A stretch of 50,197 nt of DNA from NCBI GenBank assembly GCA_027069855.1, contig JALXEF010000105.1, forward strand, positions 1 through 50,197. Reading direction: 5' to 3'. This DNA is from Caldifarciminota bacterium. GTDB taxonomy: Bacteria > Hydrothermota > Hydrothermia > WGAB01. The position numbers were made by a program, and so were the translations under genes. Numbering within the stretch: position 1 is the first letter of the stretch; each line of letters begins with the position of its first letter. The notes beneath the pieces were generated by a model, which saw nothing but the letters and a program-made list of their open reading frames with translations, was not told the DNA's origin and did no database searches. Below, piece after piece: positions 10,601 through 46,187 of the stretch.

Positions 10601-11853
10601 CAAGGATGTGAAGGACACCTCCCTCCGGGTGCCGCCCGGTGTGGAAGGTGTGGTGGTGGATGTGGTGGTGCTGTCGCGGAAGCGCGACCACGATCCCCTC
10701 TTTAAGAAGGTGGTGCGGGAACGCCTGGAGAAACTGGAACGCGAAACCGCCTTTGCCAAGCGGAACCTGCGGGAGGGACTCCAGCAGCGGTTTGTGGAAC
10801 TCCTCAAGAACTACAAGTTGCGGGGAGACATCCTGGACGCCGAGGGCAATGTGCTGGTACCTGCGGGAACCCGGCTGACCGCCAGAATCCTGGAATCCCT
10901 GGATCCCCTGGCCATCCAGTTGCCGGAGGATCTGATCTCCGACAAGAAGCGGGCCCGGACCGTTTTCGCGCTGCTGGAGCGGGCCCGGGAGATCCTCAAG
11001 GACATTGAGGAACGGGCCCAGAGGGAGCGGAACCGCATCCGCCGGGGCGACGAGTTGCCGCCTGGCGTGATCCAGCTCATCAAGGTCTATGTCGCCCAGA
11101 AGCGGAAGCTCCAGGTGGGCGATAAGCTGGCCGGCCGTCACGGGAACAAGGGCGTGGTGGCCCGGATTGCGCCGGCCGAGGATATGCCCTTCCTGGAGGA
11201 TGGAACCCCGGTGGACATCGTGCTGAACCCCCTGGGGGTGCCCTCCCGGATGAATGTGGGGCAGATCCTGGAGACCATTCTGGGCTGGGCCGCCAAGGAA
11301 AAGGGCATCTACTATGCGACACCGGCCTTTGAGGGATTCTCCACCGAGGAGATCCGGAAGGAATTGGAGGAAGCCGGACTGAGCCCCAACGGCAAGGTGT
11401 GGGTGCGCGACGGCCGTACCGGCGAACGCCTCGCCTATCCGGTGACCGTGGGGTACATCTACATGATGAAACTCATCCACATGGTGGAAGACAAGGTGCA
11501 CGCCCGCGCCGTGGGGCCGTATTCGCTCATCACCCAGCAGCCTGTGGGAGGCAAGAGCCACTTTGGCGGCCAGCGGTTCGGCGAAATGGAGGTGTGGGCA
11601 CTGGAGGCCCACGGGGCCGCCTACACCCTGCAGGAAATGCTGACCGTGAAGTCCGACGATATCCAGGGCCGGAACCGGCTGTATAAGGCGCTCCGGAACG
11701 GTGAGGAGCCGCCCGAGCCGGGCTTGCCGGCCTCCTTCAGCGTGCTGCTGCATACCCTGCGCGGATTGGGCCTGGATATTGAGATCATCACCGACAAGGG
11801 GGAGAAGAAGGCCCCCGTGTCGGAAAAAACAGAGCAAACAGGGGTGACGGAAC

Positions 11854-11864
<11 letters not shown>
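7698..11864 (+). CDS. rpoB: RNA polymerase beta subunit
   Basis: A 1388-residue beta subunit that forms half of the active-site cleft. The fork and rifampicin region reads [19 protein letters not shown], then [10 protein letters not shown], with the usual Asp, His, Arg and Ser of sensitive enzymes. [14 protein letters not shown] and [18 protein letters not shown] are intact. An insertion in the lobe region (about residues 245-390) carries repeated modules of the form TGEVLVP..L..E.L..L...V..I.V. The listed start is a GTG inside the likely Shine-Dalgarno stretch AGGGGAGGTG; the alternative is ATT at 7707 (see findings). An in-frame stop at 7680 excludes an upstream start. The end overlaps rpoC by 11 bases. 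Confidence 0.97.
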
Positions 11865-15885
<4,021 letters not shown>

Positions 15886-15930
15886 ATTCGGCTGAGACGG
15901 GCCGGATCGGCCGCACTCCTCTCGTAGCGG

Positions 15931-15952
15931 CGATGCACCGCGGGGTGCGTCG
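15931..15952. other. Hairpin between rpoC and rpsL
   Basis: CGATGCACC and GGTGCGTCG can pair (9 bp with one G-T pair, loop GCGG), 46 bases after the rpoC stop and before the rpsL promoter. No T-run follows, so it is not a standard intrinsic terminator. It could be a processing site or a 3' stabilising structure; this is speculative. Confidence 0.3.
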
Positions 15953-15972
15953 GCAGAGGGTTGTGCGGTTGG

Positions 15973-16001
15973 TTGACACCCCTGAGGCAGGTCGTTAAGA
16001 T
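15973..16001 (+). promoter_or_regulatory. Promoter of the str-S10-spc operon
   Basis: TTGACA (15973-15978, perfect -35), 17 bases, TAAGAT (15996-16001), 26 bases before the rpsL ATG. It is the only clear promoter found for the run of genes from rpsL to infA. Confidence 0.75.
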
Positions 16002-16026
16002 AATTGGCCCTTGTGAGGGAGGAACT

Positions 16027-16401
16027 ATGCCAACGATCAACCAACTGGTTCGGTACGGAAGAAAGCCGAAGCCGAAGAAGTCGAAGTCGCCGGCGCTGGA
16101 AGGGAACCCCCAGAAGCGCGGGGTGTGCATCCGGGTGTACACCACCACGCCCAAGAAGCCGAACTCGGCCATGCGGAAGGTGGCCAAGGTGCGGCTTTCC
16201 AACGGGCGTGAGGTGGTGGCCTATATTCCCGGCGAAGGGCACAACCTGCAGGAACACTCGGTGGTTCTCGTGCGCGGCGGCCGTGTCAAGGACTTGCCGG
16301 GCGTGAAGTATCACATCATCCGCGGCAAGTACGATGCCGCGGGAGTGGAGGGCCGGCGGAACTCCCGGTCCCTCTATGGTACCAAACGTCCGAAGGAGTA
16401 A
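16027..16401 (+). CDS. rpsL: 30S ribosomal protein S12
   Basis: A 124-residue decoding-centre protein. [15 protein letters not shown] is the standard start. The streptomycin-contact loop reads [15 protein letters not shown], with the usual Lys, and the second loop [16 protein letters not shown] is also of the sensitive form. GAGGGAGGAACT precedes the ATG at 16027; the ORF track starts 22 residues early. First gene of the str segment, 26 bases from its promoter. Confidence 0.98.
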
Positions 16402-16407
16402 GGATGA

Positions 16408-16878
<471 letters not shown>

Positions 16879-16938
16879 GGATCTCGCGTTCCGTAAGAAC
16901 CTTGAAACGGCAACAGCAGACAAGGTGGTGGCCATACC

Positions 16939-31019: not shown

Positions 31020-31761
31020 GACCCCGGAGCAGGTGGCCGGCATCCGCCGGGCCGCCCGGATCGTGGCCGAGGTGTTGAATCTCGTGCCGTCCTGGCTCCG
31101 GCCCGGCATGACCACCGCCGAACTCAACGAAAAGATTGACACCCTGATCCGCCAGCGGGGTGGAATCCCCGCGTTCCTGGGCTACCGGGGGTTCCCGGCG
31201 GCCAGCTGTATTTCCCTAAACCACGAGGTGGTCCACGGCATCCCGTCGCCCCTGAAACGGATCCGGGAAGGGGATCTCGTGAAGGTGGATGTCGGGGTGA
31301 TCTGGCAGGGGTACTACGGCGACGCGGCCCGCACCTACGCGGTGGGCGAGGTGTCGCCCCTGGCCCGCGAACTGATGCGGGTCACGGAACGGGCCCTGTA
31401 CCGGGGCATTGAGCAGGCCCGGCCGGGCCGACGCCTGTACGACATTTCCGCTGCCATCCAGGACGAGGTGGAACGCCACGGGTTCCATGTGGTGCGGGAA
31501 CTCACAGGCCACGGCGTGGGCCTGAAGCTCCACGAAGAGCCCATGATCCCGAACTTCCGGGAGCCCTCCACCCGAAGGATTTTTTTGAAGCCCGGCATGG
31601 TGCTGGCCCTGGAACCCATGGTCAACATCGGCACGCCCAGGGTCTATACTTTAGAAGACCACTGGACGGTGGTAACGGCGGACGGTTCGCTCTCCGCCCA
31701 CTTTGAACACACGGTGTTGATCACCAAGGATCAACCCGAGATCTTAACCCGATTGGACTGA
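31003..31761 (+). CDS. map: Methionine aminopeptidase, type I
   Basis: A 252-residue metalloprotease that removes the initiator Met. The metal ligands fall in VDVGVIWQGYYGDAARTY (two Asp), GHGVGLKLHEEP (His), LALEPMVN (Glu) and FEHTVLI (Glu), the complete type I set. The ORF track begins 31 residues too early, in adk. The usual position of map after secY-adk is kept. Confidence 0.97.
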   Translation: MAIPIKTPEQVAGIRRAARIVAEVLNLVPSWLRPGMTTAELNEKIDTLIRQRGGIPAFLGYRGFPAASCISLNHEVVHGIPSPLKRIREGDLVKVDVGVIWQGYYGDAARTYAVGEVSPLARELMRVTERALYRGIEQARPGRRLYDISAAIQDEVERHGFHVVRELTGHGVGLKLHEEPMIPNFREPSTRRIFLKPGMVLALEPMVNIGTPRVYTLEDHWTVVTADGSLSAHFEHTVLITKDQPEILTRLD

Positions 31762-31764
31762 GCC

Positions 31765-31983
31765 ATGGCCAAGAAGAATGTGATCCGTGTAGAAGGAACG
31801 GTGAAGGAAGTGCTCCCGAACGCCATGTTTCGGGTGGAGCTGGACAACGGTCTCCTGGTGCTGGCCCATGTTTCCGGCAAGATGCGGATGCACTACATCA
31901 AGATTTTGCCGGGAGACCGGGTTACCGTGGAACTCACGCCCTACGACCTGACCCGGGGCCGGATCGTGTACCGCTACAAGTAG
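31765..31983 (+). CDS. infA: Translation initiation factor IF-1
   Basis: A 72-residue OB-fold factor that binds the A site of the 30S subunit during initiation. [24 protein letters not shown] is the standard start and [24 protein letters not shown] the signature. It is the last gene of the operon: rpmJ, rpsM, rpsK, rpsD, rpoA and rplQ, which usually follow, are missing and a terminator begins 36 bases later. Confidence 0.97.
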
Positions 31984-32053: not shown

Positions 32054-32095
32054 AAAAAACGGCCGGGGCCGCGGCAACCGCCGCGGCCCCGGCCG
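32054..32095 (-). terminator. Intrinsic terminator of the minus-strand envelope operon
   Basis: A 16-bp perfect stem (32060-32075 with 32080-32095, four-base loop AACC). On the minus strand it is followed by GTTTTTTACG, a strong T-run. It lies 21 bases after the stop of the secreted FG-GAP protein. It faces the plus-strand terminator, giving two-way insulation. Confidence 0.85.
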
Positions 32096-32116: not shown

Positions 32117-33886
32117 TTAGTGGGTTACCACCATGCGGGCGATCCGCAGGCCGTCCGGGGTGTGCAGCCGCACGACGTAGACACCGCTGGCCAGGCCCGC
32201 GGTGTTCACCGTGAGGCTGTGGGCACCCGGCTCCAGGTTGCCCTGGAACACCCGGGCCACCCGGCGACCGCTCACATCAAACACCTCGGCGGTCACCCGC
32301 CCGCGGGTCCGCAGGTTGAAGGACAGGCGCGCCTCGTCCTTCACCACGGTGGGCTGCAGGTGGAGCTTCACCACATCGCTGGGCTTGAGGGTCCACTCCT
32401 CCACGCCCACATCGTTGAACTCCAGCACATTCAGCAGGCCGGTTTCCACGGTCATACGCGGATAATCGCTGTTGTCACGAGATTCATACGCGCAGAACAC
32501 CACTTCCTTGTTGCCGTCGTCGTCCAGGTCGTTCCCGAGGGCAATGGCCACCGAAGGCTGGAGCCAGTAGTGCACCCACACCGGGTTGCCGAGGGAGTCG
32601 GTGAACTGGGCGCTGTCCTGCCAGAAGTCTTCGGGGGCCATCAGGGTGTAGGCGGTGTAGGAGGCCGGGTCGCCGAGGTCGGTGCCGGTGAACTCCAGGT
32701 CCATCACCCGCTGATAGTCGTCGGTGAAGTAGATGTCGGCGCCGTCGGTGCCCGGACCGTGATCCTGGTCACCCACCCGCAGGCCCAGCAGGGAGTACAT
32801 GGCTGTGGAGTCGTTCTCCATGAACTCCACGGGCCCGTGGATGGTGATCTGGTCGGCGGTCACATCGTCGCCGGCCTCCACCACATAGAAGCGGGAACGC
32901 AGCAGGGCGCCGATGACCATCTCGGGCTTGCCGTCGTTGTCCATGTCGTAGGCGTCCACGATCTTGGCGAAGGGATACCGGTCCTCGGTATCAATGTTGT
33001 CAAAGTAGGCCTTGGCCTCGTAGGTGTTGGGTGCCGTGGCCTCAATGATCTGGAAGCCGATGTTGTTCCAGATCATCACCACGAGATCCTGGAGCCCGTC
33101 GGCATCCAGGTCCGTCGCGAAGCCCGACACCGAGCTGCCGCCCCAGCCGAGCTCCAGCCGCTTGAACACGGCCTCCACATCCACGGTGATGAAGTGGCTT
33201 CCGATGTCGCCCACGATGGAGAAGATGTAGGCGTTGTCAAAGGCCGAGCCGCCGTTGTTCACCCAGAGCACTTCCTGCACGCCGTCGGCGTCAAAGTCGC
33301 CCACCACCACATCTTCGCACCGATACCGGTCGGGGAACAGGGTATCGCCCTCAAAGCCGAACTCAATGATCCGCTCGGAGGGGACCCAGTTGCCGGTGTT
33401 GGCATCGTACTCGCCGTACTCGTTGTCGTTGCCGTTCCATTCGTACACCCACAGACCCACATGCAGGCGGTTGGTGTCGCCGCCGCCGCCGGTCATGGCC
33501 ACGATGATCTCACCGTAGCCGTCGCCGTCCAGGTCGCCGGTGGTCACGGAACGCGGGCCGTAACCGTAGGGGTTGTCGGTACCCGAAACGCACCACACCT
33601 CTTCCAGGGCGCCGTCGGTCACCTCAAACACATGGATCCGGCCGCCGTTGTAGTAGTCGGTGACGATGATTTCCTTGATGCCGTCCTGATCCAGGTCGCT
33701 CCCGGTGATCACCGAACGGCTGTAGCCGTAGTAGTTGGTATCCGCCAGCATGCAGTCGCCGATCTGGTCGGTGAGGGTGAGGTTGAAGGCGGTGTTGTCG
33801 CCATCCTGGGCGTTTTGGGCCAGCGCCCGCCCAGGCAGCAGGGCCAGCAGCATCAATACGCTGCCCCATACGGCAACCTTCTTCAT
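32117..33886 (-). CDS. Secreted FG-GAP/VCBS-repeat protein with type IX-like sorting domain
   Basis: A 589-residue protein. Signal peptide MKKVAVWGSVLMLLALLPGRALA. Residues about 40-500 hold repeated calcium-binding loops of the DxDxDG type (DLDQDG, DLDGDG, DFDADG, DLDADG, DMDNDG, DLDDDG), which indicates an FG-GAP/integrin-like beta-propeller. The last 75 or so residues (ARLSFNL...VFDVSGRRVARV...GVYVVRLHT...MVV) match the C-terminal sorting domain of type IX secretion cargo. So it is probably exported through the outer membrane and displayed or released. AAAAAGGAGGTTGTCCG precedes the ATG; own promoter candidate at 33926-33954. Ligand unknown. Confidence 0.85.
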   Translation of the reverse strand: MKKVAVWGSVLMLLALLPGRALAQNAQDGDNTAFNLTLTDQIGDCMLADTNYYGYSRSVITGSDLDQDGIKEIIVTDYYNGGRIHVFEVTDGALEEVWCVSGTDNPYGYGPRSVTTGDLDGDGYGEIIVAMTGGGGDTNRLHVGLWVYEWNGNDNEYGEYDANTGNWVPSERIIEFGFEGDTLFPDRYRCEDVVVGDFDADGVQEVLWVNNGGSAFDNAYIFSIVGDIGSHFITVDVEAVFKRLELGWGGSSVSGFATDLDADGLQDLVVMIWNNIGFQIIEATAPNTYEAKAYFDNIDTEDRYPFAKIVDAYDMDNDGKPEMVIGALLRSRFYVVEAGDDVTADQITIHGPVEFMENDSTAMYSLLGLRVGDQDHGPGTDGADIYFTDDYQRVMDLEFTGTDLGDPASYTAYTLMAPEDFWQDSAQFTDSLGNPVWVHYWLQPSVAIALGNDLDDDGNKEVVFCAYESRDNSDYPRMTVETGLLNVLEFNDVGVEEWTLKPSDVVKLHLQPTVVKDEARLSFNLRTRGRVTAEVFDVSGRRVARVFQGNLEPGAHSLTVNTAGLASGVYVVRLHTPDGLRIARMVVTH

Positions 33887-33925
33887 CGGACAACCTCCTT
33901 TTTGGTTGCTTGTTGCTATCGTTAT

Positions 33926-33954
33926 GTTTTAAGGCTTTTCCCGCCGGTTCTCAA
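33926..33954 (-). promoter_or_regulatory. Promoter candidate for the FG-GAP protein
   Basis: Minus strand TTGAGA (33954-33949), 17 bases, TAAAAC (33931-33926), 40 bases before the ATG at 33886 in a visibly A+T-richer gap. It would allow separate expression of the last gene of the cluster. Confidence 0.5.
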
Positions 33955-34958
33955 AATACCAGCAGAACCCCGAACCGCTGGGCGTTCTGCAGCCGCCCGA
34001 AGTCCAGGTACGAGTAATCCAGGTTGAGCTTCCAGGGCAGGCGGGGCGAGGTGATCTGGAAGCCGGCCCCGGCGGTGAGGCCGCCCTCCATCTCGTCGTT
34101 AAAGAGGCCCCGGTACCCTGCCCGGAGACTCAGAAACCGGCCCAGGTGAACCTCGGCGCCGGCGTTGAGGTACGCGTAGTTGTCGTTCGGGGTCACGAAG
34201 TCCACGGCCCAGATGCCGGGCAGCACCGGCAGGGGGCCCGAGAGCCCCACCTGGAACCGCGTGGGCAGGTCAAAGGCATCGGTCCGCAGGTCGGCCACCA
34301 CATTGGGGGTATGGTTCGGGTTCCGGTTGGGGTCAATGTTGTAGATGAACCGGGTGTCTTCGCCCATGAGCCGCATTTTGCCACCGAAGTTGGACAGGTT
34401 CATGCCCAGCTGGATGCCGTGGAAGTCGGTATCAAAGTGGATACCCAGGTCAATGGCATAGGCCGAGGCGCTCATGTGCCAGATCTGTTCGGAGATGTAC
34501 TTGAAGGCGAAGCCGAAGGAAAAGCGGTCGGTGAAGGGCACGCCGTAGGCAAAGGTGAGGGCCAGGTCGTTGACCTCAAAGGTTTCGCCGGTGCCCTCGG
34601 GGGCGTCTTCGGTGCGCACCTTCATCTCGCCGGAGCCCAGGTAGGTCATGGCCCCGCCGATGGTGCCGCGGTTGGGCAGCGGCCACACCATGCCCACATA
34701 GCCGAAGTTGATGCCGGCGATCCAGTTGGCCTGGTTGAAGATCACCTGGCGCCGGGACACCCGGCTCAGGCCGGCCGGGTTCCAGTATAGGGCCGAAGCG
34801 TCGTTGGCCACGGCCACGAAGGCGTCGCCCATGGCGGTGGCACGCATGCCCACGCCGATCTTCAGAAACTGGGCGGCCCGGGTGCCCACATTGGACACGG
34901 CCCCGGCACTGCCCACCAGAGCAACCGTCAACAAGAGGGTGACGATGATCCGTTTCAT
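33951..34958 (-). CDS. PorV/PorQ-like outer-membrane barrel protein
   Basis: A 335-residue protein. Signal peptide MKRIIVTLLLTVALVGSAGA. The mature start (VGTRAAQFLKIGVGMRATAMGDAFVAVANDASALYWNPAGLS) is the hallmark of the PorV/PorQ and FadL-like barrel group, with amphipathic strands to the end (YLDFGRLQNAQRFGVLLVF). In type IX systems PorV carries cargo from the secretion channel to the sortase. The link is inferred from family and the adjacent sorting-domain proteins; a general outer-membrane role is possible. The ORF track begins 4 residues early; GAGGTGGATC precedes the ATG at 34958. It starts 8 bases after the upstream gene. Confidence 0.85.
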   Translation of the reverse strand: MKRIIVTLLLTVALVGSAGAVSNVGTRAAQFLKIGVGMRATAMGDAFVAVANDASALYWNPAGLSRVSRRQVIFNQANWIAGINFGYVGMVWPLPNRGTIGGAMTYLGSGEMKVRTEDAPEGTGETFEVNDLALTFAYGVPFTDRFSFGFAFKYISEQIWHMSASAYAIDLGIHFDTDFHGIQLGMNLSNFGGKMRLMGEDTRFIYNIDPNRNPNHTPNVVADLRTDAFDLPTRFQVGLSGPLPVLPGIWAVDFVTPNDNYAYLNAGAEVHLGRFLSLRAGYRGLFNDEMEGGLTAGAGFQITSPRLPWKLNLDYSYLDFGRLQNAQRFGVLLVF

Positions 34959-34966
34959 GATCCACC

Positions 34967-37813
34967 TCACTTAATCACGGCAAACTTGCCGATGGCCGAG
35001 CCCACGCGTTTGCCGTCCACATACCCCTCCACATGGTACACATACAGGCCGTAGGCGATTTCCTGGCCGTACTTGTTCTGCAGGTTCCAGGCGTGCACCG
35101 AGGGGCTCAGGTAGCCGTCTTCACCAGGGAAGTGGCGCAGCGTGCGGATGAGCTCGCCGTTGATGGTGTAAATGCGGATGACGGCCTCCTCCGGCAGGTT
35201 GATGAAGTGCAACTCACGTTCTCCGCGGCCGAAGCGGATGTACTCGTCCTTGATCTCCCAGCGGGCGGCCACCACGTAGGGGTTGGGTACCACCGCCACC
35301 TGGTCCAGCTGGCTCTGGATGGTTTCCTCCGAGGTGCGGGGCGCGGTCACCGTGAAGAGCACGGTGTCGGCCGGTGAAAGCGGCGTGTAGAAGCGCAGAT
35401 GGGCCACATCCCCGGCCTGGGGCGGAATGTACACCGAGTCGGTGTCGGCCACGAAGGGGTATTTGAAGATGATCTGGTACAGCGGCGTGGTGCCGCCGGG
35501 GGCGAAGATGGACAGCCGGTCGTTGCCATAAGGATCGTCCACCAGCGAGTCGCCGTCCGCCTCCTGGTACATGAACTCGGCCGGCAGGATCTGATCCCCC
35601 TGCACCAGGGACACCCGGAACTTCATGGGCACATTGTTCACATAGGGGCCGGTGGACTTGTACCGGGCGGCCGTGTCCGGCTCGCCGATCTCAATCATTA
35701 CATGGTACGGCAGCCAGCGGAACACCGAGGCCTGATCCACATACAGGTTGGAGTTCCCGGGCAACCACACCAGCGTGTCCAGGCCCTCGCGGGTTTCGCT
35801 GGTGATGAAGAAGCGGAGCCCATCCACGATGGGGGCGCCGTCCTCTCCGTGGATGTAAGGAATCCCCGAGGCCAGCACGGTGCCTTCGCCGTTCTGCAGG
35901 CGGGTGATCGTCCAGGTGGTGTCGGTGCCGGTGGAATCGTACTGGATGGTGATCTGGTAGTCGGCGTCGGCCAGGTCATAGGGGTTGGCAATCCGGGCCT
36001 CAAAGAGGCTGGTGGTCACCAGCGTGGACCGGCTGGAATCCAGGACCACCGCAGGTTCGGTCATCCCGAGGGGCGGAGCCGTGGGGATCACCTTCACGAT
36101 GGCCGGGTTGTTCTCAATGGGGTACAGGGAACTCATCATGGGCGGCACCAGGAGCGAAGTGTCGCCCTGGTTATAGGAGAGCACGGCGTACCAGTAGGTT
36201 TTGCCCGGGGTCACCGTGCTGTCCACGAAGGAGTGGCGCAGGCCGCTGTCGTCACCCAGGTAGAAGTGCACGCCGTTGACGCCGATGGGGGCGTAGCCGG
36301 TGACGCCGTCGGCCTTATCGTACTGGGCCAGGGGCTTGTACCATACCAGGCGGCCCAGAGCATCGGTCACCGGATCGCCCCAGGAGGCGCCGCCGTCTTC
36401 GGAACGGTACACGAGGTAGCCTTCAAATCCCTCGGCCGATTCCGGGGAATCGTCCCAGAACAGGGTGACCCGGTACCGGTCGGGTACGGCCATTACGCGC
36501 GGCGGCGGCGGAGCCTTGGGGAACTGGTAATCCCGGTCGTAGATGATCTGGGCGAAGCGGGCGTTGTCGTAGAGGTCGGCCGAGTCCTCACCCATCACGA
36601 TGGCAATGGAGAACCGCTGGGTTTCGCCGCGGGCCAGGCGGAAGTAACCGGAGCCGAACACGGTGATGTAGTCCCCGGGGCCGGGGTTCACATCGTACAC
36701 CCCCGGCCGCAGCAGGTTGTACATGGCCGAGTCGTTGTAGGCGAAGAGGCCGGCGGTGCCGTAGGGGAAGGAGTACACCGAGGTCAGCCCCAGTTCCTGG
36801 CCGTTTTCGTCCTTGGGGGTTTCCAGCAGGCGGAAGCCCAGCATACCGCACTGGTACGGGCGGCCGTCGGCGCCGAAGCCCATGCCGTCCTGGTCGTACA
36901 CGATCACCATGTTGTTTTCGGCGTCAAAGGCGTACATGTCGTCGCTGAAGTCGGAGCCGGGCCCGCCGATCCGGTAGTCGCCGAAGTAGCCCACCACCAT
37001 GGAGTCCAGGTCGTAGTCCGAGATGTTGGTGATCTCGTAGGTGAAGATGATGAGGTCCTCCACTACCGAGGCGGCCCACTGGTATCCACGCACCTTCACG
37101 AGGAGGCCCAGGCCGCTCACCTGGTCGTTGTCGGCGTAGGGCAGGTAGATGGGGTTGCCCTCGGGGTTGCCGGGCCGGAAATCCAGGTTGAAGCTGTCGG
37201 ACATCACGAAGAAGGACTCCTGGTCGCCCCGGATCACCTCAATCACGCTGTCCGGGCTTACCACCTCGTTGTAGGCGCCGGCCCACTTGCCCCGCAGGTT
37301 CTTGACGGTGTCGCCGTAGACATTCGTGTACGGGGGCCAGACCTCGGGCCAGGTTTCCGGACGGTTGGAAAAGGCCAGCATGGGCTGGCCGTCGCGGGCG
37401 AAGCCGGGCACCGGCTCAAAGTCCTCGTCGCCGCCGTCCTGGATCGGGTCGTCCACGATAGAGATCCATACGGAGTCGCCGGTCGCCGGGTTGTAGCCCT
37501 TCACGCGGGCGCCGATCATGGGGCCGATTTCGTAAAGGTACTCATGGCCCGAGTAGGCGGGCCACTCCAGGCGGGGCCAGGGATCTACCCGGTTGGGGCC
37601 GCAGATGGCCCCGTGGTTAAAGAACTTGAGGCGGATCTTGTTGCCGTCGTGGATCCCGTATTTGCGGGCCGGGGCGCCCTTGAGCCCCACGGTGGCCCCT
37701 TTGCCGGCCTGCTCGGGCGCCAGTTTCACCGATTCGGGCAGGTACTTCTGCCCGGGAACGCCGGCCAGCGCGGTACCGGCGAGCACCAGAATCCAGAAAA
37801 CGCGTTTCATCAT
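34967..37813 (-). CDS. Large secreted protein with C-terminal sorting-type domain
   Basis: A 948-residue protein. Signal peptide MMKRVFWILVLAGTALAG. Residues about 60-430 are a beta-rich domain with many Asp, Gly and aromatic residues (for example FDAENNMVIVYDQDG). A fibronectin III-like unit lies near 450-540 (RVMAVPDRYRVTLFWDDSPES). The last 95 or so residues (VVPNPYVVAARWE...IRIYTINGELIRTLRHF...YGLYVYHVEG...FAVIK) resemble the FlgD-like/type IX sorting domain of FCB-related phyla. No catalytic motif seen. It sits between the TonB-dependent receptor and the PorV-like gene. AAGGAGACC precedes ATGATG; the first ATG is taken. Likely surface-located. Confidence 0.8.
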   Translation of the reverse strand: MMKRVFWILVLAGTALAGVPGQKYLPESVKLAPEQAGKGATVGLKGAPARKYGIHDGNKIRLKFFNHGAICGPNRVDPWPRLEWPAYSGHEYLYEIGPMIGARVKGYNPATGDSVWISIVDDPIQDGGDEDFEPVPGFARDGQPMLAFSNRPETWPEVWPPYTNVYGDTVKNLRGKWAGAYNEVVSPDSVIEVIRGDQESFFVMSDSFNLDFRPGNPEGNPIYLPYADNDQVSGLGLLVKVRGYQWAASVVEDLIIFTYEITNISDYDLDSMVVGYFGDYRIGGPGSDFSDDMYAFDAENNMVIVYDQDGMGFGADGRPYQCGMLGFRLLETPKDENGQELGLTSVYSFPYGTAGLFAYNDSAMYNLLRPGVYDVNPGPGDYITVFGSGYFRLARGETQRFSIAIVMGEDSADLYDNARFAQIIYDRDYQFPKAPPPPRVMAVPDRYRVTLFWDDSPESAEGFEGYLVYRSEDGGASWGDPVTDALGRLVWYKPLAQYDKADGVTGYAPIGVNGVHFYLGDDSGLRHSFVDSTVTPGKTYWYAVLSYNQGDTSLLVPPMMSSLYPIENNPAIVKVIPTAPPLGMTEPAVVLDSSRSTLVTTSLFEARIANPYDLADADYQITIQYDSTGTDTTWTITRLQNGEGTVLASGIPYIHGEDGAPIVDGLRFFITSETREGLDTLVWLPGNSNLYVDQASVFRWLPYHVMIEIGEPDTAARYKSTGPYVNNVPMKFRVSLVQGDQILPAEFMYQEADGDSLVDDPYGNDRLSIFAPGGTTPLYQIIFKYPFVADTDSVYIPPQAGDVAHLRFYTPLSPADTVLFTVTAPRTSEETIQSQLDQVAVVPNPYVVAARWEIKDEYIRFGRGERELHFINLPEEAVIRIYTINGELIRTLRHFPGEDGYLSPSVHAWNLQNKYGQEIAYGLYVYHVEGYVDGKRVGSAIGKFAVIK

Positions 37814-37832
37814 GGTCTCCTTCCCAGGTTCC

Positions 37833-40454
37833 TCAGAAGTTCAAGGCCAAACCCAGCCGCACTTCGCGGGGCGGGCTGAAGTAATAGGGCCGCTTGTAGT
37901 AGCCGGGGTCGGCCGTGGGCCGGGTCATGTAGGTGTGGGTAGCCCGGCCGGTGTCGGTGTACACATAGCGCTCGTTCATGCGGTCCAGCACGTTGTACAC
38001 CTTCGCGAAGATCCGCAGCACCTTGTTGCCCCAGTGGAACTCCTTATAGGCATGGAGGTCCACATTGAAGTGGGCCGGGCGACGCGCGGAGTTGAACTCG
38101 CCCCGGAAGTTGCCGGTGGTGTCGGTGGGGGTGTAGGGCAGGCCGCTGCCGTAGGAGGCGATCAGGCTGATGCCGTAGTTCCGGGGCACCGTGTAGGACA
38201 CGGTGGCGTTGATCCGATGCCGCTCGTCCCAGTCCAGGGGCACCATCTTCCGCGGCGGCTCCACGCCGTTCCGGAGATCGGCGAAGAGGTCGCGGGGCGC
38301 CGAGTTCAATCCCTCGGCCACCTGCAGGGTGTAGTCAAACTCGGCGGAGAGGTAGCCCAGGTTGCGCAGCTTCAGGTACACCGAAACACCGCGCACATTG
38401 CCGTAGTCGTTGTTGATGTAGGTCATGTAATGGTCGCCCTGCACCAGCGACGGCATGAGTTTGGTGGCCAGGAGGTTCCGGATATCCTTGTAGTAACCGG
38501 TGACCTCCACGCCGAAGTGGTCGCCCACGGCCTGTTTGAAGCCCACCTCGTAGGCGATGGTTTGCTGGGGTTTCAGGTCGGCGTTGCCCATGACCGTGCG
38601 GTTCGCCTTGGAGGCCCACTCAAATTCGGAGTTCCGGTACAGGTAGTAGAGCGGCGGGATCTGGAAAAAGTGGCCGTAGGAGAAGTGGAACACGCCGGTT
38701 TCAGAGATCGGGAAGGCCAGGCCCAGCCGCGGCGAGATCTGCCACTTGGGGTCCACCTGGTGATAGCCCGGGAAGGGATTGGCTGTGTCGGCCCAGATCA
38801 TGGGTGAGGGGGCCAGGTCGTCGTTCCACACCTTCCACCGGGGGTCAAAGTAGTCCAGTCGGATGCCGGCGTTGACGATGAGGTCGCGGAATTCCATCTT
38901 ATCCTGGATGTAGGCGGCGTACTGCACCGGATGGTGGGTGTACTGGTCAATGTCGTAGATGGTGTCGCGGATAGGCAGGGCCGGCGGCGTCGTGTCGGGA
39001 TTGGACACATACAGGCTGAAGCGGTGCACCGTGGTGCGGATGGCCTCCAGGCCCGTTTTCAGGAAGTGGTGCCGGGTGGCCTGCCAGCTGAGGTCCAGGC
39101 GGGCCGTCAGGTTCTTGGTGTACCGCTTGAACCAGCTGCGGGAAACGCCTCCCTCATAAAAGCGATGCTCCGAAACAAAATAGCCCCAGTACCCGAAGTG
39201 GTAGCAGGGGCAGTAGTAGTCCTCGTACACGAAACTGCGGTACTGGGAATAGACATAGCCCAGGCGGGCCGAATAGCTCAGCGTGGGGCTCAGGATATGG
39301 TTCCAGGCAACGATGCCGGTGTAGGCCCGGCGGAACCGATGGGGGTTGGCCAGGGGTTCCCATAGGAGCCGGTGTTCCCCGATGCTGTTGTACTCCCGCC
39401 AGTACCGATCGTCAAACACTCCGGTGAGGTTGATCTTGATGTGGGAAGTGAGGGGCAGGGTGAACTTGCCGGTGACCTGATACGCCTCATAGGGGTTCAT
39501 CGGCACCAGGGAGCCGTCGCCGTTGCCGGTGCTGTCGTACTGGGTGTCGGTGGGTAGGTACTTGTTGATCCCGAAGAGCCAGCCTTCGTCCTTGACCACA
39601 TTGCCGCCCAGGAAGAAGCGGAGCTTGGTCCGGGCCAGGGGACCGGAGAGCGACCAGCGGAGGTGCTTGTTGGACAGCGGATTCACCCGGTCCACATGCG
39701 GGAAGTAATCCGTGTGGGTGGACACCTTATCGCCGCTGTACGCCTCTACATAGCCCTCCAGTTTGGGGCCGCCCTCGCGGGTCACCACATTGATCACGCC
39801 GGACATGGCGTTGCCGTATTCCGCATTGAAGGTGCCGGCGATGAGTTCCAGCTGGCCGATGGTATTGGTGGCCACCTGGATCCCCTGGCTGGAGAGATAG
39901 GGGTCGGTGATGGGGATGCCGTCCAGGTAATAGGCCACCTCGTTGGAACGACCGCCGCGGATGTGGATGCCGCCGCCGGGGTCCTGGGTGATGCCTGCCT
40001 TGATGGAGATCACCTGAGACACATCTTCCACCGGCAGGGCCCGGAGTTCCGCGCGGTCGGTCACGATCATGGTGGAGGTTTCGTCTTTACGCACCACAGG
40101 CTCCCGGGCGGTGACCACCACGGGCTCCACCTCAATGGCCTCGGGTTGGAGCTGGAAGTTGACCTCCGTGGTGAGGTCCACGATAACCTTCACACCCTTG
40201 ACGGTCATGGGGGCGTAGCCCACCATGCTGGCGGTGACATCGTAGGTGCCCGGGGGCACATGCAGGATCATGAAGAAGCCGTCCACATCGGTGGCCGCAC
40301 CGAAGGTGGTGCCCTCAATGTACACATTGGCGCCGGGCAGGGGGTCGCCGGTTTGGGCGTCGATCACACGCCCGACGATTTTGCCGGTTTCGCCGGCCAG
40401 CGCCCAGCCCACCAGCGCCAACACGGCCAGGATTTGGAGGGAAAAGCGACGCAT
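37833..40454 (-). CDS. TonB-dependent outer-membrane receptor with N-terminal regulatory-like domain
   Basis: An 873-residue protein. Signal peptide to about residue 20. A carboxypeptidase-regulatory-like domain follows (GRVIDAQTGDPLPGANVYIEGT, residues about 28-105). A likely TonB box is EPVVVTAR near 115. The plug domain has IHIRGGRSNEVAYYLDGIPITDP and NAEYGNAMSGVINVVT. The barrel runs to the C-terminal Phe (RLGLALNF), the usual end for BAM insertion. A loop in the first half of the barrel is rich in aromatics and holds CPC. Substrate unknown; similar receptors take up siderophores, sugars or peptides. GAGGAGGTGGCC precedes the ATG at 40454, so the GTG two codons earlier is not used. Confidence 0.9.
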   Translation of the reverse strand: MRRFSLQILAVLALVGWALAGETGKIVGRVIDAQTGDPLPGANVYIEGTTFGAATDVDGFFMILHVPPGTYDVTASMVGYAPMTVKGVKVIVDLTTEVNFQLQPEAIEVEPVVVTAREPVVRKDETSTMIVTDRAELRALPVEDVSQVISIKAGITQDPGGGIHIRGGRSNEVAYYLDGIPITDPYLSSQGIQVATNTIGQLELIAGTFNAEYGNAMSGVINVVTREGGPKLEGYVEAYSGDKVSTHTDYFPHVDRVNPLSNKHLRWSLSGPLARTKLRFFLGGNVVKDEGWLFGINKYLPTDTQYDSTGNGDGSLVPMNPYEAYQVTGKFTLPLTSHIKINLTGVFDDRYWREYNSIGEHRLLWEPLANPHRFRRAYTGIVAWNHILSPTLSYSARLGYVYSQYRSFVYEDYYCPCYHFGYWGYFVSEHRFYEGGVSRSWFKRYTKNLTARLDLSWQATRHHFLKTGLEAIRTTVHRFSLYVSNPDTTPPALPIRDTIYDIDQYTHHPVQYAAYIQDKMEFRDLIVNAGIRLDYFDPRWKVWNDDLAPSPMIWADTANPFPGYHQVDPKWQISPRLGLAFPISETGVFHFSYGHFFQIPPLYYLYRNSEFEWASKANRTVMGNADLKPQQTIAYEVGFKQAVGDHFGVEVTGYYKDIRNLLATKLMPSLVQGDHYMTYINNDYGNVRGVSVYLKLRNLGYLSAEFDYTLQVAEGLNSAPRDLFADLRNGVEPPRKMVPLDWDERHRINATVSYTVPRNYGISLIASYGSGLPYTPTDTTGNFRGEFNSARRPAHFNVDLHAYKEFHWGNKVLRIFAKVYNVLDRMNERYVYTDTGRATHTYMTRPTADPGYYKRPYYFSPPREVRLGLALNF

Positions 40455-40464
40455 GGCCACCTCC

Positions 40465-40983
40465 TCAGCGGGTTTGCAGGGTGTCTACCAGGGTGTCGGG
40501 ATACAGGTTGGCGCTGTCCACCACCGGAATCAACAGGTCGCCCAGGTCGGTGGTCTCGTTCTCGCGCACTTCCAGGCCGGGGATGCTGGTGTCGGGGAAC
40601 ACCTCCACGCTTTCAATCACGGTGACGGCCCGATAGTGGAGCAGGGTGGTGTCCCAGGTGAGGGTGTCCACCAGGGTATCCAGCCATTCGGCCTCTATGA
40701 GGGTTTCCGGGGGAAAGACCACGGGGTCCTTTTGCAACACGAGTTCATAGGTTCGCGGGCACAGGGAGAGTTCAAAGGCACCGTTGGCATCGGTGTACCG
40801 ATAGGTCACCGGAGGGATGGTGCTGACCTTGACCGATTCAATGGCGGTTTCCTGTTGCAGGCGGAGCACCCGGCCGGTGAGAATGCCGGCCTTGGGAGAT
40901 TCCGGGGGCTTAATACAGCCCACCAGGAGAAGAAGGATCCCCACCCCCCCAATTCCCCACGCGAACGGTCTTAAGGCTCTCAT
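40465..40983 (-). CDS. Lipoprotein with carboxypeptidase-regulatory-like domain
   Basis: A 172-residue protein. Lipoprotein signal ending LLLLVGC, so the mature Cys is near residue 23. The rest is like a regulatory-like beta sandwich (TGRVLRLQQETAIESVKVST...TYRYTDANGAFELSLCPRTYELVL), the same type of fold as the N-terminus of the receptor encoded next. Ten bases separate it from the receptor gene, so they probably work together at the outer membrane. It starts 12 bases after rsmB ends. AAAGGAGGTTCCG precedes the ATG. Confidence 0.75.
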   Translation of the reverse strand: MRALRPFAWGIGGVGILLLLVGCIKPPESPKAGILTGRVLRLQQETAIESVKVSTIPPVTYRYTDANGAFELSLCPRTYELVLQKDPVVFPPETLIEAEWLDTLVDTLTWDTTLLHYRAVTVIESVEVFPDTSIPGLEVRENETTDLGDLLIPVVDSANLYPDTLVDTLQTR

Positions 40984-40995: not shown

Positions 40996-42321
40996 TCAGG
41001 GGCCAATTATAACCGGCGCCGATTTCCGCCGAAAGAGGGCGCCGAAAATCTCGTCGCAGTCGTGCAAAGGCCCGTGGGACCGGAAAAAGGGGCCGTCGGT
41101 CCAGTCTTCGGGCACCCGCTCGGCGGCGGGAATCTGCTGGAAATCCCTGAAAGATTTGAGGAATTGCTGCACTTGGGCCTCGTTTTCTTCGGGCTCCGTG
41201 GTGCAGGTGGCGTACAGCAGGGTGCCCCCTGGCCGCACCAGCCGGGCTGCATTGGCCAGGAGTTGCTGCTGCAGGCGGGCCAGGGCCGGGATGCGTTCGG
41301 GGCGCAGCCGCAAAAGGATTTCGGGTTTGCGGCGCAGGGTGCCCAGGCCCGTGCAGGGGGCGTCCAGCAACACAGCATCCACCGGTGTGCGGAGGGAAAA
41401 GGTCCGGCCGTCGGCCACCACCGGAGCCACGATGGAGGCCCCCAGCCGCCGGGCCACCTGCTGCAAACTGCGGGTCCGGCCCGGATGACGGTCCACGGCG
41501 ATCACCAGCCCCTGGTTCCCCAGGAGGGCCGCCAGGTGGGTGGCCTTGCCCCCGGGCGCCGCTGCCAGGTCCACGATCCGGCTGCCGGGTTCCGGAGCCA
41601 GAAGGTGCGCCAGGGCCTGGGTGGCCCGGTCCTGCACATAGTACCAGCCGGGCGGCAGGTCGGGGATCTCCCAGGGGTGACGGTCCAGGCGCAGGGTTTC
41701 CGGCGGCCAGTCCACGGGTTCGGCGGCCACCCCTCTTTCCTGCAGGAACACCTGCAGGGCCTCGCGGGAGGTTTGCAGGGTGTTCACCCGCAGGTACAGG
41801 GGCGGTGCGCTGTGGTAGTATTGGAGCCAGGTTTCCAGAGCCTCCGGGCCCCAGCGCTGGTGCCACCGTTGATACAGCCATCGGGGCACCGACCACGCGA
41901 TCCAGGGATGGGGCGGGTCCGGCGCTCCGCGGGCCAGGCGCCGCAGCACGGCGTTGACCAGGCCGGCGGCCTGGGGCGCCCCGCGCCGGGCCAGTTCCAC
42001 GGTTTGATCCACGGCTGCGTAGGCCGGCACCCTGCCCTTGAGCAGCTGGTACGCACCCAGCCGCAGCAGGCTGCGTACCGGGGGATCCAGGCGTTTCAGC
42101 CCGCCGTGCACCTGTTGCTGCAGCACCCAGTCCAGGTACAGGGTCCACTTCACGGTACCGTAGGCGAGTTCGGTGGCACGGCGACGGGCAGGGCCAGCCG
42201 GCAGGTTCTGCAGAACGGCCACCAGGATGCGGCTGAGCCAGGCCCCTTCTTCGGTGACCCGGTGCACCAGGTACCAGGCAGCTCCGCGGGGATTCTGAAG
42301 CAGGGAAGGAGAAGCCTTCAC
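40996..42321 (-). CDS. rsmB: 16S rRNA (cytosine-967 C5)-methyltransferase RsmB
   Basis: A 441-residue enzyme that methylates C967 of 16S rRNA with S-adenosylmethionine. The N-terminal NusB-like domain covers about residues 8-140 (RRRATELAYGTVKWTLYLDW). The catalytic domain has DLAAAPGGKATHLAAL (SAM binding), VDRHPGRTRS, DAPCTGLGTLRRKPE (motif IV with its Cys) and LLYATCTTEPEENE (motif VI with the nucleophilic Cys). GTG start overlaps the upstream kinase stop (GTGA), implying coupling. It could be a close relative such as RsmF, but the NusB domain and length favour RsmB. Confidence 0.93.
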   Translation of the reverse strand: MKASPSLLQNPRGAAWYLVHRVTEEGAWLSRILVAVLQNLPAGPARRRATELAYGTVKWTLYLDWVLQQQVHGGLKRLDPPVRSLLRLGAYQLLKGRVPAYAAVDQTVELARRGAPQAAGLVNAVLRRLARGAPDPPHPWIAWSVPRWLYQRWHQRWGPEALETWLQYYHSAPPLYLRVNTLQTSREALQVFLQERGVAAEPVDWPPETLRLDRHPWEIPDLPPGWYYVQDRATQALAHLLAPEPGSRIVDLAAAPGGKATHLAALLGNQGLVIAVDRHPGRTRSLQQVARRLGASIVAPVVADGRTFSLRTPVDAVLLDAPCTGLGTLRRKPEILLRLRPERIPALARLQQQLLANAARLVRPGGTLLYATCTTEPEENEAQVQQFLKSFRDFQQIPAAERVPEDWTDGPFFRSHGPLHDCDEIFGALFRRKSAPVIIGP

Positions 42322-45300
42322 GAGCCTTCCGGGCTTTCCTCCGGAGGTTCGGGAGGCGCTTGATCAGACTGTTGGAGCCGATATCGCTGGGCCTCGGCAA
42401 TCCGCTTTTCCAGGTAGTAGACATAGTAGCGGGAACGCACGGTGATCAGGATCAGGCTCAGGGAAACGGGCTTCAGCAGGAAGATCACGCCGTCCTCCTC
42501 CATGGGGCGGAGACGTTCGGGCAGGGGGATTTGGTCCACGATGACAACCAGTCGCGACACCAGGTCCGGGCGGTGGGTTTTGAGCCACCGGTAAAAGGTA
42601 TCCAGGTTGAAGTCGGGCAGACCCGCGTTGACGATGAGGAGTTGATAGGTGCGGCTGCTGACATAGTCCTGGAAGGTGGGGCCGTCGGTCACGACATCCA
42701 CATACACGCCGTCCTTTTCCAGTTCTGGCTTGATGGATCGGCTGAGGAAGGGTTCAAACTCGCCGATCAGCACGCTGGGCTGCCCCTCCTTGGGCCCGGT
42801 GGGTTTGGCGCCGGGTTTCAGGGGCAGGCGAATGATGAAGGCGGTGCCCTTGCCCCCTTCGGTTTCTACCTGGATGGTGCCGTTGTGTTCCCGCACGATC
42901 CGGGCACAGAGGGCGAGGCCCAGGCCGGTGCCCTTGCCCGGGGGTTTGGTGGTAAAGAAGGGGGCGAAGATGCGGGGCAGGATCTTGCGGGGAATCCCCG
43001 GGCCGTTATCCCGCACCACCAGTACGGCAAAATCGCCCTCCAGGCTGGTTTCAATGTCGGTGATGACCTCCACCTCATCGCCCTTTCTGCTCATCTGGAT
43101 GGCGTCGCGGGCGTTGAGCAGGAGGTTGACCAGAACCTGCTGGATTTCTCCCTCGTAGCCCCACAGATAGATAGGGCGGCCGGCACGCTTGGTTCGCTTG
43201 ATCTTGACCCCGGAGAAGGAGAGATTGCGGTCAAAGGTGTTCAGGATCTGATCCACGGCCCGGTCCAGGTCAAAGGGCTGGGGTTTTACCCGTTTCTTGG
43301 TGCCCGCCAGGGAGAGCATCTCGCGCACGATGTAGGAAGCCTGGCTGGCCAGGCTCCGGGCCTTTTCCAGGTCTTCCCGCAGTTCCGGGTGAAGCCCTCC
43401 GCGATTCAGCCAGTATTCCAGGAGCCCGATGACCCCCGTGAGGGGGTTGTTGACTTCGTGGGCAACACCGGAAGCCATTTCCGCCACCGCGCTGGACAGG
43501 GAAACGAGGGGGAGATCTTCGTCCATCTTCCGCACCGAGGTCATGTCGCGGATGGCAAACACATAGTGGCCGCTGGGCGTACGGGAGCCGGAGATGTTCC
43601 AGAAGGCGAAGGGTTCGGCGTTGGGGGAAACCTGGGGAGCCACATCCGTGGGAGGGAGGGAACCGCGTTCCCGAAGAGTCTGGAGGAACCGGTCAATGGG
43701 CAACATGGGCAAAAGATCCTGGAGGTTCCGTCCGATCAGGGATTCCGGAGGGTCGCCCAGGGCCTGGAAGGCCCGGAAGTTGGAGTACAGGATGGTGCCG
43801 TCTTCGGTGACCGACACGATCCAGTCGGGAGAGAACTCCAGCACCGATTCTCGGTGCTGGCGCACCTCGCGTTCTTGTTCGTAGCGCTGGGCGTTGTACA
43901 GGGCTCGGGCCGCCAGCGGGGCCAGGCGGTGCAGCTTGTCCAGGGTTTCCGGCGAAAGCCGTGTGGGACTGCACAGAACCAGGGCCGCCACCGAGCCCTC
44001 GCCCCGCCGCAGCGGATAGAGGTAGCGATGGGGACAATCCTCGGGAAGGGGAAGCCGGTGCCGGGGAGTAAGGGGCAATTCGTGCAGTTCCTTCGGGATT
44101 TCCACGATGTGGGGGCGGTTTACCCACTCCAGGAACCGCTGGTTTGCATCCTGCAGATCCCAGGTTTGCCTCTCCAGGGAGGGATCAGGTTGCCACCGGT
44201 AGAAGTAGAGACGCAGGGGTTCGGGGAACAGCAAAAGCCCCTGGATCCCTTCCGGCACGATGGCTTCAACGGTTTGGAGCAGCAGGTTCAACACCCGCTC
44301 CGTGTCCAGCACCTGGCTCTGCTCCAGGAAACGGTGGGTAAGATCCTGAAGTTTCAGCCGCTGGAGTATCCGCTGGTGTCGGTCAAAGGTCTGGTACAGC
44401 AGCGAAAACATGGACCCCAGGGCTTCCAGGAAGTGGACATCGTGGGGGGTAAAGGCCCGGCGGTGCCGGCTTTGCACCTGAAGCACGCCGAAGACACTGC
44501 CGTCCAGATCCTTCAGGGGCACACAGATCTCGGAATAGGGGAACCACTGGGAGGGAAGAGCGGTGATAAAGTCGGGATGTTTGGTGGTGTCATTGGCCCA
44601 AACGGTTTCGCCGGTGCGGGCGGCCTTGCCCAGGAGGCCCCGTTTCATGCTCTGGGTGTACTCGCGAACCGACACGGGCAGCCCCCGGAAGGATTTGAGG
44701 CGGAGTTCCTGCTTCAGAGGATCCACTTCCCAAAGACCCACATGGTGATACATGGGAAGTTCCAGGATCACCGACATCAGGTTTTCTACCAGTTCGTCGG
44801 GCGGGAAGGGGAAGGTCAACCGTCGTAGAACCTCGGTGAACCGCCGCAGGGCTTCTTGCTGGTGTTGCGTGGCTTTTTCCAGTTCGGCCCGCTGGATGGC
44901 AATGCTCAGGAAGTTGGCCACGGTCTTGAGCACCTGGCGGATGAAACCGGTGCCCTGCCAGGGCCGAGCGAACAGTAAGCTGAGGGCCCCCCGGAGTTCG
45001 CCGTGTTCAAACAGGGGAACGCTCACCAGCGTGTGGTATCCCTCAGCCTGATCTTCGGGAGAAAGATCCGGGACTTCCCGGAGGACCTCCTGGATCACCA
45101 CGGGTTTACGGGTTTCTACGGCCTTAAGGAGAAGGGTATCACCGGGTTTGGCCTCCCGGAAGCGCTGCAGAAACCCCCGGCTCAGCCCCTGCTGGGCATG
45201 CAGCCGGTAGATGCCGTTTTCTTCAATGAAACAGGCGATTTTGAAGGCCCCTGTGAGATCAATAAGGGCCTGGAAGGCTTCGTCCAGCAGGTCTTCGGTT

Positions 45301-46187
45301 GCTGCTCCCTGCAGGGCCCGGGCAAACAGGCGTTGCATCCGGCTCAGGAGATCCTGGAGAGCCCGGGCTTCTTCGGTAATCTGGACCTGATGCCACACCC
45401 GGCCCAGGCGTTGCGCCAGAGTTTCCAGAAACATGCGCTCGCGCTCCGAAAAGGCCTCAGGGCGGGCCCCGAACAGTACTCCCATCACGCCTCCGCTGTC
45501 CCACACCGGCAGAATGAAGGCGTGGTAGCCCTCCAGCACGGGTCGCAGGACCTGCCGGAGGGGCTCAGGGAACAGCGGCAACTGCTCCATGAACTCCAGG
45601 GCCGTTAGGTACCGGGGTTTCTTGCGTTTCAGGCTCTGGATTAGGGGATGTTGCTCGCAACACTCCATCTGGAAGTAGGCCAATTCGGGACGGAACCCCA
45701 CCTGTTTACGGAAGGCTTCCCGAATCTCCGGTGCCCGGGCATCCACCCGCCGGAACCGCAGGGTTTGGTTTTCAACCAGGTCAAAGGTATGGATCAGCGA
45801 GAGGTTTAAGAGTTTGGCCAGGCGCCGGTGCAGCATCTGGAAAAGGGTGGAGAACCGGGTGACCTGATGCAGGTCGCGCAGCAGAGGCCCCAACTGGTTC
45901 AGCACCCAGCACAGGTCGTCCTGGAACTGGAACCTCTGGATCAGGGCCTTAATGTCCTTCAGGCCCACGACGCGAAATCCCCGGGCGGCGGTAAAGATAA
46001 TGGCCCGCGTAGAGGTGATCGGGATCTTGAGAATCTCCCGTTCCCCCTCCCGATCTATCTGCGGGGCGTCCAGCGCAAGGTCGCGGACCTCCACGGTTAA
46101 AGGCTGCCCTTCGGCGGCCAGGAGGTCCACGATTTTTAGCAGCAGATCTTCCTGGGCCTTGCGCTTTGCTGCTTTCCCCTTCGCCAT
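42318..46187 (-). CDS. Cytoplasmic multi-GAF/PAS histidine kinase with degenerate receiver
   Basis: A 1289-residue protein with no signal peptide or membrane segment. Approximate layout: unknown N-terminal domain (1-90), four GAF-like domains (105-270, 285-435, 470-605, 620-765), a PAS domain (775-880), HisKA with phosphorylatable His910 (GVAHEVNNPLTG), HATPase with NLLLNARDAI, DNGPGIP, FAPFFTT and GTGLGLALC, then a receiver-like domain (about 1150-1265). The receiver has Asn1187 (IVNAGLPD) where Asp is phosphorylated and a poor acidic pair (IGEFEP), though the KP motif stays. GAF/PAS ligands are unknown. No response regulator lies nearby. It sits between addA and rsmB and is coupled to rsmB; GAAGGAATC precedes the ATG. 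Confidence 0.88.
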   Translation of the reverse strand: MAKGKAAKRKAQEDLLLKIVDLLAAEGQPLTVEVRDLALDAPQIDREGEREILKIPITSTRAIIFTAARGFRVVGLKDIKALIQRFQFQDDLCWVLNQLGPLLRDLHQVTRFSTLFQMLHRRLAKLLNLSLIHTFDLVENQTLRFRRVDARAPEIREAFRKQVGFRPELAYFQMECCEQHPLIQSLKRKKPRYLTALEFMEQLPLFPEPLRQVLRPVLEGYHAFILPVWDSGGVMGVLFGARPEAFSERERMFLETLAQRLGRVWHQVQITEEARALQDLLSRMQRLFARALQGAATEDLLDEAFQALIDLTGAFKIACFIEENGIYRLHAQQGLSRGFLQRFREAKPGDTLLLKAVETRKPVVIQEVLREVPDLSPEDQAEGYHTLVSVPLFEHGELRGALSLLFARPWQGTGFIRQVLKTVANFLSIAIQRAELEKATQHQQEALRRFTEVLRRLTFPFPPDELVENLMSVILELPMYHHVGLWEVDPLKQELRLKSFRGLPVSVREYTQSMKRGLLGKAARTGETVWANDTTKHPDFITALPSQWFPYSEICVPLKDLDGSVFGVLQVQSRHRRAFTPHDVHFLEALGSMFSLLYQTFDRHQRILQRLKLQDLTHRFLEQSQVLDTERVLNLLLQTVEAIVPEGIQGLLLFPEPLRLYFYRWQPDPSLERQTWDLQDANQRFLEWVNRPHIVEIPKELHELPLTPRHRLPLPEDCPHRYLYPLRRGEGSVAALVLCSPTRLSPETLDKLHRLAPLAARALYNAQRYEQEREVRQHRESVLEFSPDWIVSVTEDGTILYSNFRAFQALGDPPESLIGRNLQDLLPMLPIDRFLQTLRERGSLPPTDVAPQVSPNAEPFAFWNISGSRTPSGHYVFAIRDMTSVRKMDEDLPLVSLSSAVAEMASGVAHEVNNPLTGVIGLLEYWLNRGGLHPELREDLEKARSLASQASYIVREMLSLAGTKKRVKPQPFDLDRAVDQILNTFDRNLSFSGVKIKRTKRAGRPIYLWGYEGEIQQVLVNLLLNARDAIQMSRKGDEVEVITDIETSLEGDFAVLVVRDNGPGIPRKILPRIFAPFFTTKPPGKGTGLGLALCARIVREHNGTIQVETEGGKGTAFIIRLPLKPGAKPTGPKEGQPSVLIGEFEPFLSRSIKPELEKDGVYVDVVTDGPTFQDYVSSRTYQLLIVNAGLPDFNLDTFYRWLKTHRPDLVSRLVVIVDQIPLPERLRPMEEDGVIFLLKPVSLSLILITVRSRYYVYYLEKRIAEAQRYRLQQSDQAPPEPPEESPEGS

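Follow-up and report, generated by a model that had tools for sequence, protein, structure and literature searches.

In the SusCD systems of Bacteroidota, which are encoded in polysaccharide utilisation loci, the gene of the receptor adjoins that of its surface partner, the lipoprotein SusD, and glycoside hydrolases, regulators and transporters are encoded in the same loci. In the attachment complex of the type IX secretion system, on the other hand, the surface protein PorZ sits by its uncleaved tail on PorQ, a barrel of the PorV family (PMC5562754). The tails of PorU and PorZ both stay uncleaved and are bound to PorV and PorQ, respectively (PMC10202324, PMC5562754), and a review has suggested that tails are shielded from cleavage by PorV-like barrels cognate to them (PMC10202324). 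Type B tails and their cognate PorP/SprF barrels have been experimentally shown to form private pairs (PMC12618676, PMC9143113), and in the BamG-BamH pair of the Bacteroidota BAM complex a FadL-type barrel binds a surface protein (PMC12578637).

In this paper, we describe a locus in which the genes of a TonB-dependent receptor (TBDT), of a large secreted partner protein with a type IX C-terminal domain (hereafter big) and of a barrel of the PorV/PorQ family stand side by side. This triad shares features with all of the systems above, but it cannot be assigned to SusCD, to PorV or PorQ proper, or to the type B pairs. As in SusCD loci, the receptor gene adjoins the gene of a surface partner, and glycoside hydrolases, regulators and transporters are encoded in several sister triad operons; unlike in SusCD, the place of the SusD lipoprotein is taken by a type IX protein that has a barrel of its own, the phylum has no SusD, and the triad operons carry inner-membrane ABC or sodium-symporter genes and LacI-type regulators. 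The nearest system in sequence is PorZ-PorQ, from which the triads differ in that they occur as several cassettes per genome, stand beside a receptor, and have a barrel that scores below the PorQ equivalog cut-off. With the type B pairs they share the side-by-side encoding of a tail protein and a private barrel, but the triad barrels are of the PorV/PorQ kind without a PorP/SprF match, and the tails have more matches to PorU and PorZ than to the type B model. Likewise, BamG-BamH offers a FadL-type barrel that binds a surface protein, whereas the triad barrels score weakly against BamG and the triad is not a single-copy assembly part. The components belong to known families; of their combination we found no description in the open-access literature, which also gave nothing on PorV paralogues beside receptors or on PorU2/PorV2, and two papers on WOR-3 made no mention of type IX or TonB. 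We favour, with moderate confidence, the reading that the triad is a SusCD-like outer-membrane unit for nutrient uptake, whose type IX partner is permanently held by its own PorQ-like barrel.

The five-gene cluster and its surroundings

The window, to which all coordinates refer, is the whole stretch of 50,197 nt of contig 105 that was analysed; it comes from a genome of 2.14 Mb in 178 contigs, estimated to be complete, which the named relatives retrieved by protein similarity assign to the candidate phylum WOR-3. ORF calling places the cluster on the minus strand as five ORFs running from 40983 to 32117, and the gaps of 10, 19, 8 and 64 bases given in the first-pass annotation are reproduced when ATG starts are used for the receptor and the barrel. 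The first gene (40465..40983) encodes a lipoprotein of 172 aa with the lipobox ..LLVGC. It is followed by the gene of the TBDT (37833..40460), which has 875 aa from a GTG start and an alternative ATG at 40454, and by that of big (34967..37813), a protein of 948 aa made up of a signal peptide, an N-terminal beta-sandwich region, an FN3-like region and the type IX C-terminal domain (34967..35308). The barrel of 339 aa (33951..34970; GTG start, alternative ATG at 34958) and an FG-GAP protein of 589 aa (32117..33886) complete the series, all on the minus strand, and a terminator-like hairpin on the same strand (32060..32095), with 16 G-C pairs, a loop of 4 and a T run, closes the cluster. At the other end, the lipoprotein gene starts only 12 bases after the end of rsmB and is preceded by a good Shine-Dalgarno sequence, so the cluster transcript may start further upstream. 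The stretch 40996-46187 contains the gene of a hybrid histidine kinase of 1289 aa, with GAF and PAS domains, which overlaps rsmB by 4 bases; because of this overlap and of the 12-base distance from rsmB to the lipoprotein, the sensor kinase may share a transcript with the cluster.

Two other parts of the window were also noted. A minus-strand tRNA-Leu (AAG) called by ARAGORN at 31687-31780, overlapping the end of a methionine aminopeptidase gene, is probably false, since Rfam gives it no support. In the region 7683-18441, frames of 1425 and 2217 codons lie antisense to plus-strand frames of 1388 and 1343 codons; the latter are probably rpoB and rpoC, and the former probably shadow frames of these GC-rich genes.

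The receptor carries CarbopepD_reg_2 (77 bits), Plug (39 bits) and outer-membrane barrel domains in Pfam, with PF13715, PF07715 and PF14905 all above their cut-offs, and scores 71.5 bits against the SusC/RagA model TIGR04056 (cut-off 368). It had been proposed in the first-pass annotation that the receptor and the lipoprotein share a regulatory-like fold; the CarboxypepD_reg match of the lipoprotein (21.6 bits, E 2.3e-4) falls below the curated cut-off of 32.2 bits. The FG-GAP protein combines FG-GAP repeats with an ordinary type A sorting tail at residues 523-587 (TIGR04183, 25.2 bits; cut-off 23). Both the lipoprotein, upstream of the receptor, and the FG-GAP protein were seen beside the triad in WOR-3 relatives alone, and we regard the two as accessories to the triad core. 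Given this restricted occurrence and its ordinary type A tail, the FG-GAP protein is probably served by the general PorV; the idea that it is a client of the local barrel was dropped, since its tail is of the ordinary cargo kind.

A search for sprA and porU elsewhere in the genome, as proposed in the first-pass annotation, recovered SprA (PF14349, 100.9 bits; TIGR04189, 424.7 bits, cut-off 200) and a PorU-like sortase just under its cut-off (NF033707, 402.4 bits, cut-off 420). Sorting tails that pass the cut-off were counted in over 50 of its proteins, and SprA is present in 137 of 147 WOR-3 genomes. PorL gave no match in this genome with the GldL model, while the PorM (GldM) search across the phylum matched in no control and so carries no weight; the type IX motor of WOR-3 may be divergent or different.

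Conservation and inheritance of the triad

A contig scan with the single 948-aa sequence as query found no loci, and a profile made from the alignment of big found 79 in named genomes, which span WOR-3/Stahlbacteria/Hydrothermota, Neomarinimicrobiota, KSB1, Calditrichota, Kryptonia, Ignavibacteria, Rhodothermales, Delongbacteria and TA06. Within WOR-3, big was matched in 141 of the 147 genomes, many of the matches being partial, to the tail or to the body. The flanking genes were typed by gene calling together with home-made receptor and barrel profiles. A receptor lies directly upstream of big in 44 of the 45 loci with at least 4 kb of upstream sequence, and a barrel no more than 300 bp downstream in 47 of the 50 with 4 kb downstream; where both flanks are available, the exact order TBDT-big-barrel within 300 bp is found at 32 of 33 loci, which cover WOR-3, Neomarinimicrobiota, KSB1, Calditrichota, Bacteroidota relatives and Delongbacteria. 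Because the loci were picked by similarity to big alone, this order is not built into the sampling, and it is far beyond chance, as the genome of the window has just 9 PorV-family matches in its 2.14 Mb and yet 32 of the 33 loci are flanked by both genes. The gene order that the first-pass annotation had suggested looking for in related genomes is therefore conserved far beyond close relatives, and its view of a dedicated surface module, made up of a receptor, a type IX cargo and a PorV-family barrel, is supported.

The genome of the window itself has four cassettes with a triad-type tail and a barrel, namely that of the window (C105) and those on contigs C69, C38 and C30. In C38 the barrel precedes big, giving the order receptor-barrel-big, and C30 consists of a GH53 galactanase gene, big and a barrel, and lacks a receptor gene directly upstream. 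For all three genes, the triads of C105 and C69 each group with a counterpart in another genus of the family; the distance between counterparts in the two WOR-3 genera is about 0.5-0.9 substitutions per site, compared with about 2-3 between the two triads within a genome. This consistent pairing of the C105- and C69-type paralogues across genera shows that the triads travel as units. The patristic correlations between the three genes are also high (0.82-0.93), though we do not take them as proof of co-inheritance, since a shared species history inflates such values.

The tail of big and its barrel

Conservation is strong over the last 120 residues of big (VVPNPY ... GKFAVIK). The first-pass annotation had both the 589-aa and the 948-aa protein ending in domains that look like type IX sorting signals and proposed profile searches of the two C-termini; the claim stands for the former through TIGR04183, while the latter gave no match to that model (cut-off 23 bits) and resembles the tails of PorU and PorZ. 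As to the type B tail (PF13585/TIGR04131), the tail of the 948-aa protein had no match in Pfam; CHU_C is weakly matched by 13 of 48 relatives of big, and TIGR04131 is absent from the matches of the family. When 48 tails of big were scanned singly, PorU was matched by 39, PorZ by 36 and the ordinary cargo model TIGR04183 by 14, at E 0.01. For comparison, 28 tails of the ordinary kind from the genome of the window were scanned, of which 6 matched PorU and 4 PorZ; these had been picked by the cargo model, hence their count for that model is circular. Searched against the PDB, the triad-tail profile had PorU (6za2) and PorZ (5m11) as its sole matches, both weak in absolute terms (E 0.003-0.007), whereas for the ordinary tails PorU and PorZ ranked below FlgD, mirolase, gingipain and further cargo tails. 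Judged by these profiles, the tail of big appears to be of the retained PorU/PorZ kind and not an ordinary cargo tail. In the genome of the window the triad-tail profile has exactly four strong matches (77-154 bits, the next being 23.7), all of which sit in the barrel-containing cassettes; the C69 tail also passes the ordinary cargo cut-off. No relatives of the triad tail were found in viral contigs.

The barrel of the window scores 203.4 bits against the PorV/PorQ family model NF033709 (cut-off 90), which is matched by all 42 triad barrels; a PorP/SprF match was found in none of the 42. Among the equivalog models, the best is PorQ (NF033711) with 116.3 bits, below its cut-off of 220, while PorV (NF033710) gives 77 bits, below its cut-off of 250. 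The PorQ/PorV scores of the four cassette barrels are 116/77, 63/41, 80/58 and 80/51 bits, and of eight triad barrels from other loci seven lean to PorQ and one is level; the two models overlap, and none of the triad barrels tested passes the equivalog cut-off of either. A solitary gene on contig C48, on the other hand, is PorV-like (PorV 144, PorQ 79 bits). By model score, then, the barrel is nearer to PorQ, the anchor of PorZ, than to the PorV shuttle. The first-pass annotation had inferred that both cargo proteins use it as an adjacent PorV-like factor, a reading that needs to be changed: since all four cassette barrels score higher for PorQ than for PorV and the C48 gene is PorV-like, the local barrel is not best read as a PorV cargo shuttle.

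A rather unlikely explanation of these data is that big is an ordinary type IX cargo, for which the barrel would be an extra shuttle to PorU, the tail being cleaved and the protein linked to LPS or released, and the receptor merely co-regulated. The barrel does belong to the PorV/PorQ family, its best solved structural match is PorV, and the genome encodes a PorU-like sortase and many ordinary cargo proteins. However, the strict one-to-one pairing of tail and barrel speaks against it, as ordinary cargo tails need no private barrel, and so do the kinship of the tail of big to retained tails and the existence of a separate PorV-like gene.

The AlphaFold model of the barrel (pLDDT 90.7) has FadL and BamG as its next best solved matches after PorV, and many FadL and TodX structures match it as well; in Pfam a weak Toluene_X match was found. 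This FadL-type fold would suit a channel for greasy molecules, in which case the cluster would import such a compound by two outer-membrane routes. We give this explanation very little credence, since PorV is the best structural match, the PorV/PorQ family score lies far above its cut-off, we saw no hydrocarbon genes in the vicinity, and sugar genes accompany several of the sister triads. The resemblance to BamG, a related FadL-type barrel that likewise binds a surface protein (PMC12578637), raises the question of whether the barrel and the surface protein might, together with the BAM machinery, help to fold or place the receptor, as BamG and BamH do in Bacteroidota. Although 17 of the 42 triad barrels weakly match the BamG model, these scores are tiny beside those for PorV and PorQ; moreover, the cassettes have a copy each and do not share a single general set, and several sister cassettes contain genes for ligand uptake, which makes such a role in assembly very unlikely.

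The body of big, neighbouring genes and the proposed uptake unit

No Pfam family was matched by the 948-aa protein, and no catalytic family was found in it. Its AlphaFold model (pLDDT 83.4) is nearly all beta, with the N-terminal sandwich region, FN3-like modules and the tail, and Foldseek matched it to fibronectin modules, PorZ, members of GH94 and GH116, and a cellobiose phosphorylase; the match to PorZ is not full-length. The fold match to the glycoside enzymes spans about one fifth of the query, and in our reading the matched part of these enzymes would be their sandwich domain. As sequence-profile comparison with a GH94 protein gave no homology, this likeness is kept as a mere hint. Some proteins with different tails share the N-terminal domain of big (G001:C36, L102:4012-5700; L118:12928-15777). 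In one case, in G142, a relative of this domain is encoded between big and the barrel and is joined to a cargo tail of the ordinary type (TIGR04183, 31.9 bits), possibly representing a released form of the same binding domain.

As for the ligand, no sugar genes, transporters or enzymes were found beside the window cassette. Elsewhere, besides the galactanase gene of the C30 cassette, GH13 and MalEFG-type ABC sugar-transport genes adjoin the sister cassette in G146, and GH94 and MalEFG-type genes lie on the same strand in that of G144. Among 78 operon neighbours at other triad loci, the raw counts are 8 ABC permeases, 4 solute-binding proteins, 4 sodium symporters, 4 LacI regulators, 3 GH94, 3 GxGYxYP hydrolases, 2 GH77, 2 GH130 and 2 CBM20. 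A glycan or oligosaccharide is our leading guess for the ligand of the window triad. At the locus L119:1-12199, the genes of a GH94-type phosphorylase, an ABC sugar transporter, a barrel, big and a receptor lie on one strand, which makes it a compact candidate operon for oligosaccharide uptake.

The FN3-like and sandwich regions of big without a catalytic family, and a window cassette without an adjoining transporter or enzyme, would also suit a non-nutritional role, in which big would act as an adhesin or a matrix protein and the receptor would serve for sensing or anchoring instead of import. The receptor, however, has a full plug and barrel, and inner-membrane sugar transporters are encoded in several sister operons; we consider such a role improbable.

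We therefore return to the nutrient-uptake unit as the preferred reading. From what is known of the family, big would be exported by the type IX system. Its uncleaved tail would then be bound by the private PorQ-like barrel, which would keep big permanently anchored in the outer membrane just as PorQ does with PorZ; we infer this retention because tail and barrel are kin to PorU/PorZ and PorQ and are strictly paired. Outside the cell, big would serve as a ligand-binding partner that covers or feeds the receptor, a cooperation to which the gene order and the co-inheritance point, and the receptor would import the ligand with TonB energy. The retention of the tail, the contact between big and the receptor, and the binding of a ligand are all predictions. 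That the same arrangement is widespread for uptake across the FCB superphylum, every such receptor having a private, unprocessed type IX partner clamped by a private PorQ-like barrel, and that it is the functional counterpart of SusCD loci where SusD is absent from the phylum, is put forward more tentatively.

If the prediction holds, it would support the suggested shielding of tails by their cognate PorV-like barrels (PMC10202324), and would add a third way of holding a receptor partner at the cell surface, besides lipoproteins and linkage to lipopolysaccharide. It would also give a function to many genes that are now merely annotated as PorV/PorQ family proteins. The triad joins two fields that have been studied separately, TonB-dependent nutrient uptake and type IX secretion. 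SusD was found in one of the 147 WOR-3 genomes, and there with internal stops; as WOR-3 is without SusCD, and its receptor is encoded beside a secreted protein and a probable tethering barrel, the triad may replace SusCD in this phylum. It would thereby explain how large ligands are taken up without SusD in poorly cultured phyla, in WOR-3 and perhaps also in Neomarinimicrobiota, KSB1 and Calditrichota.
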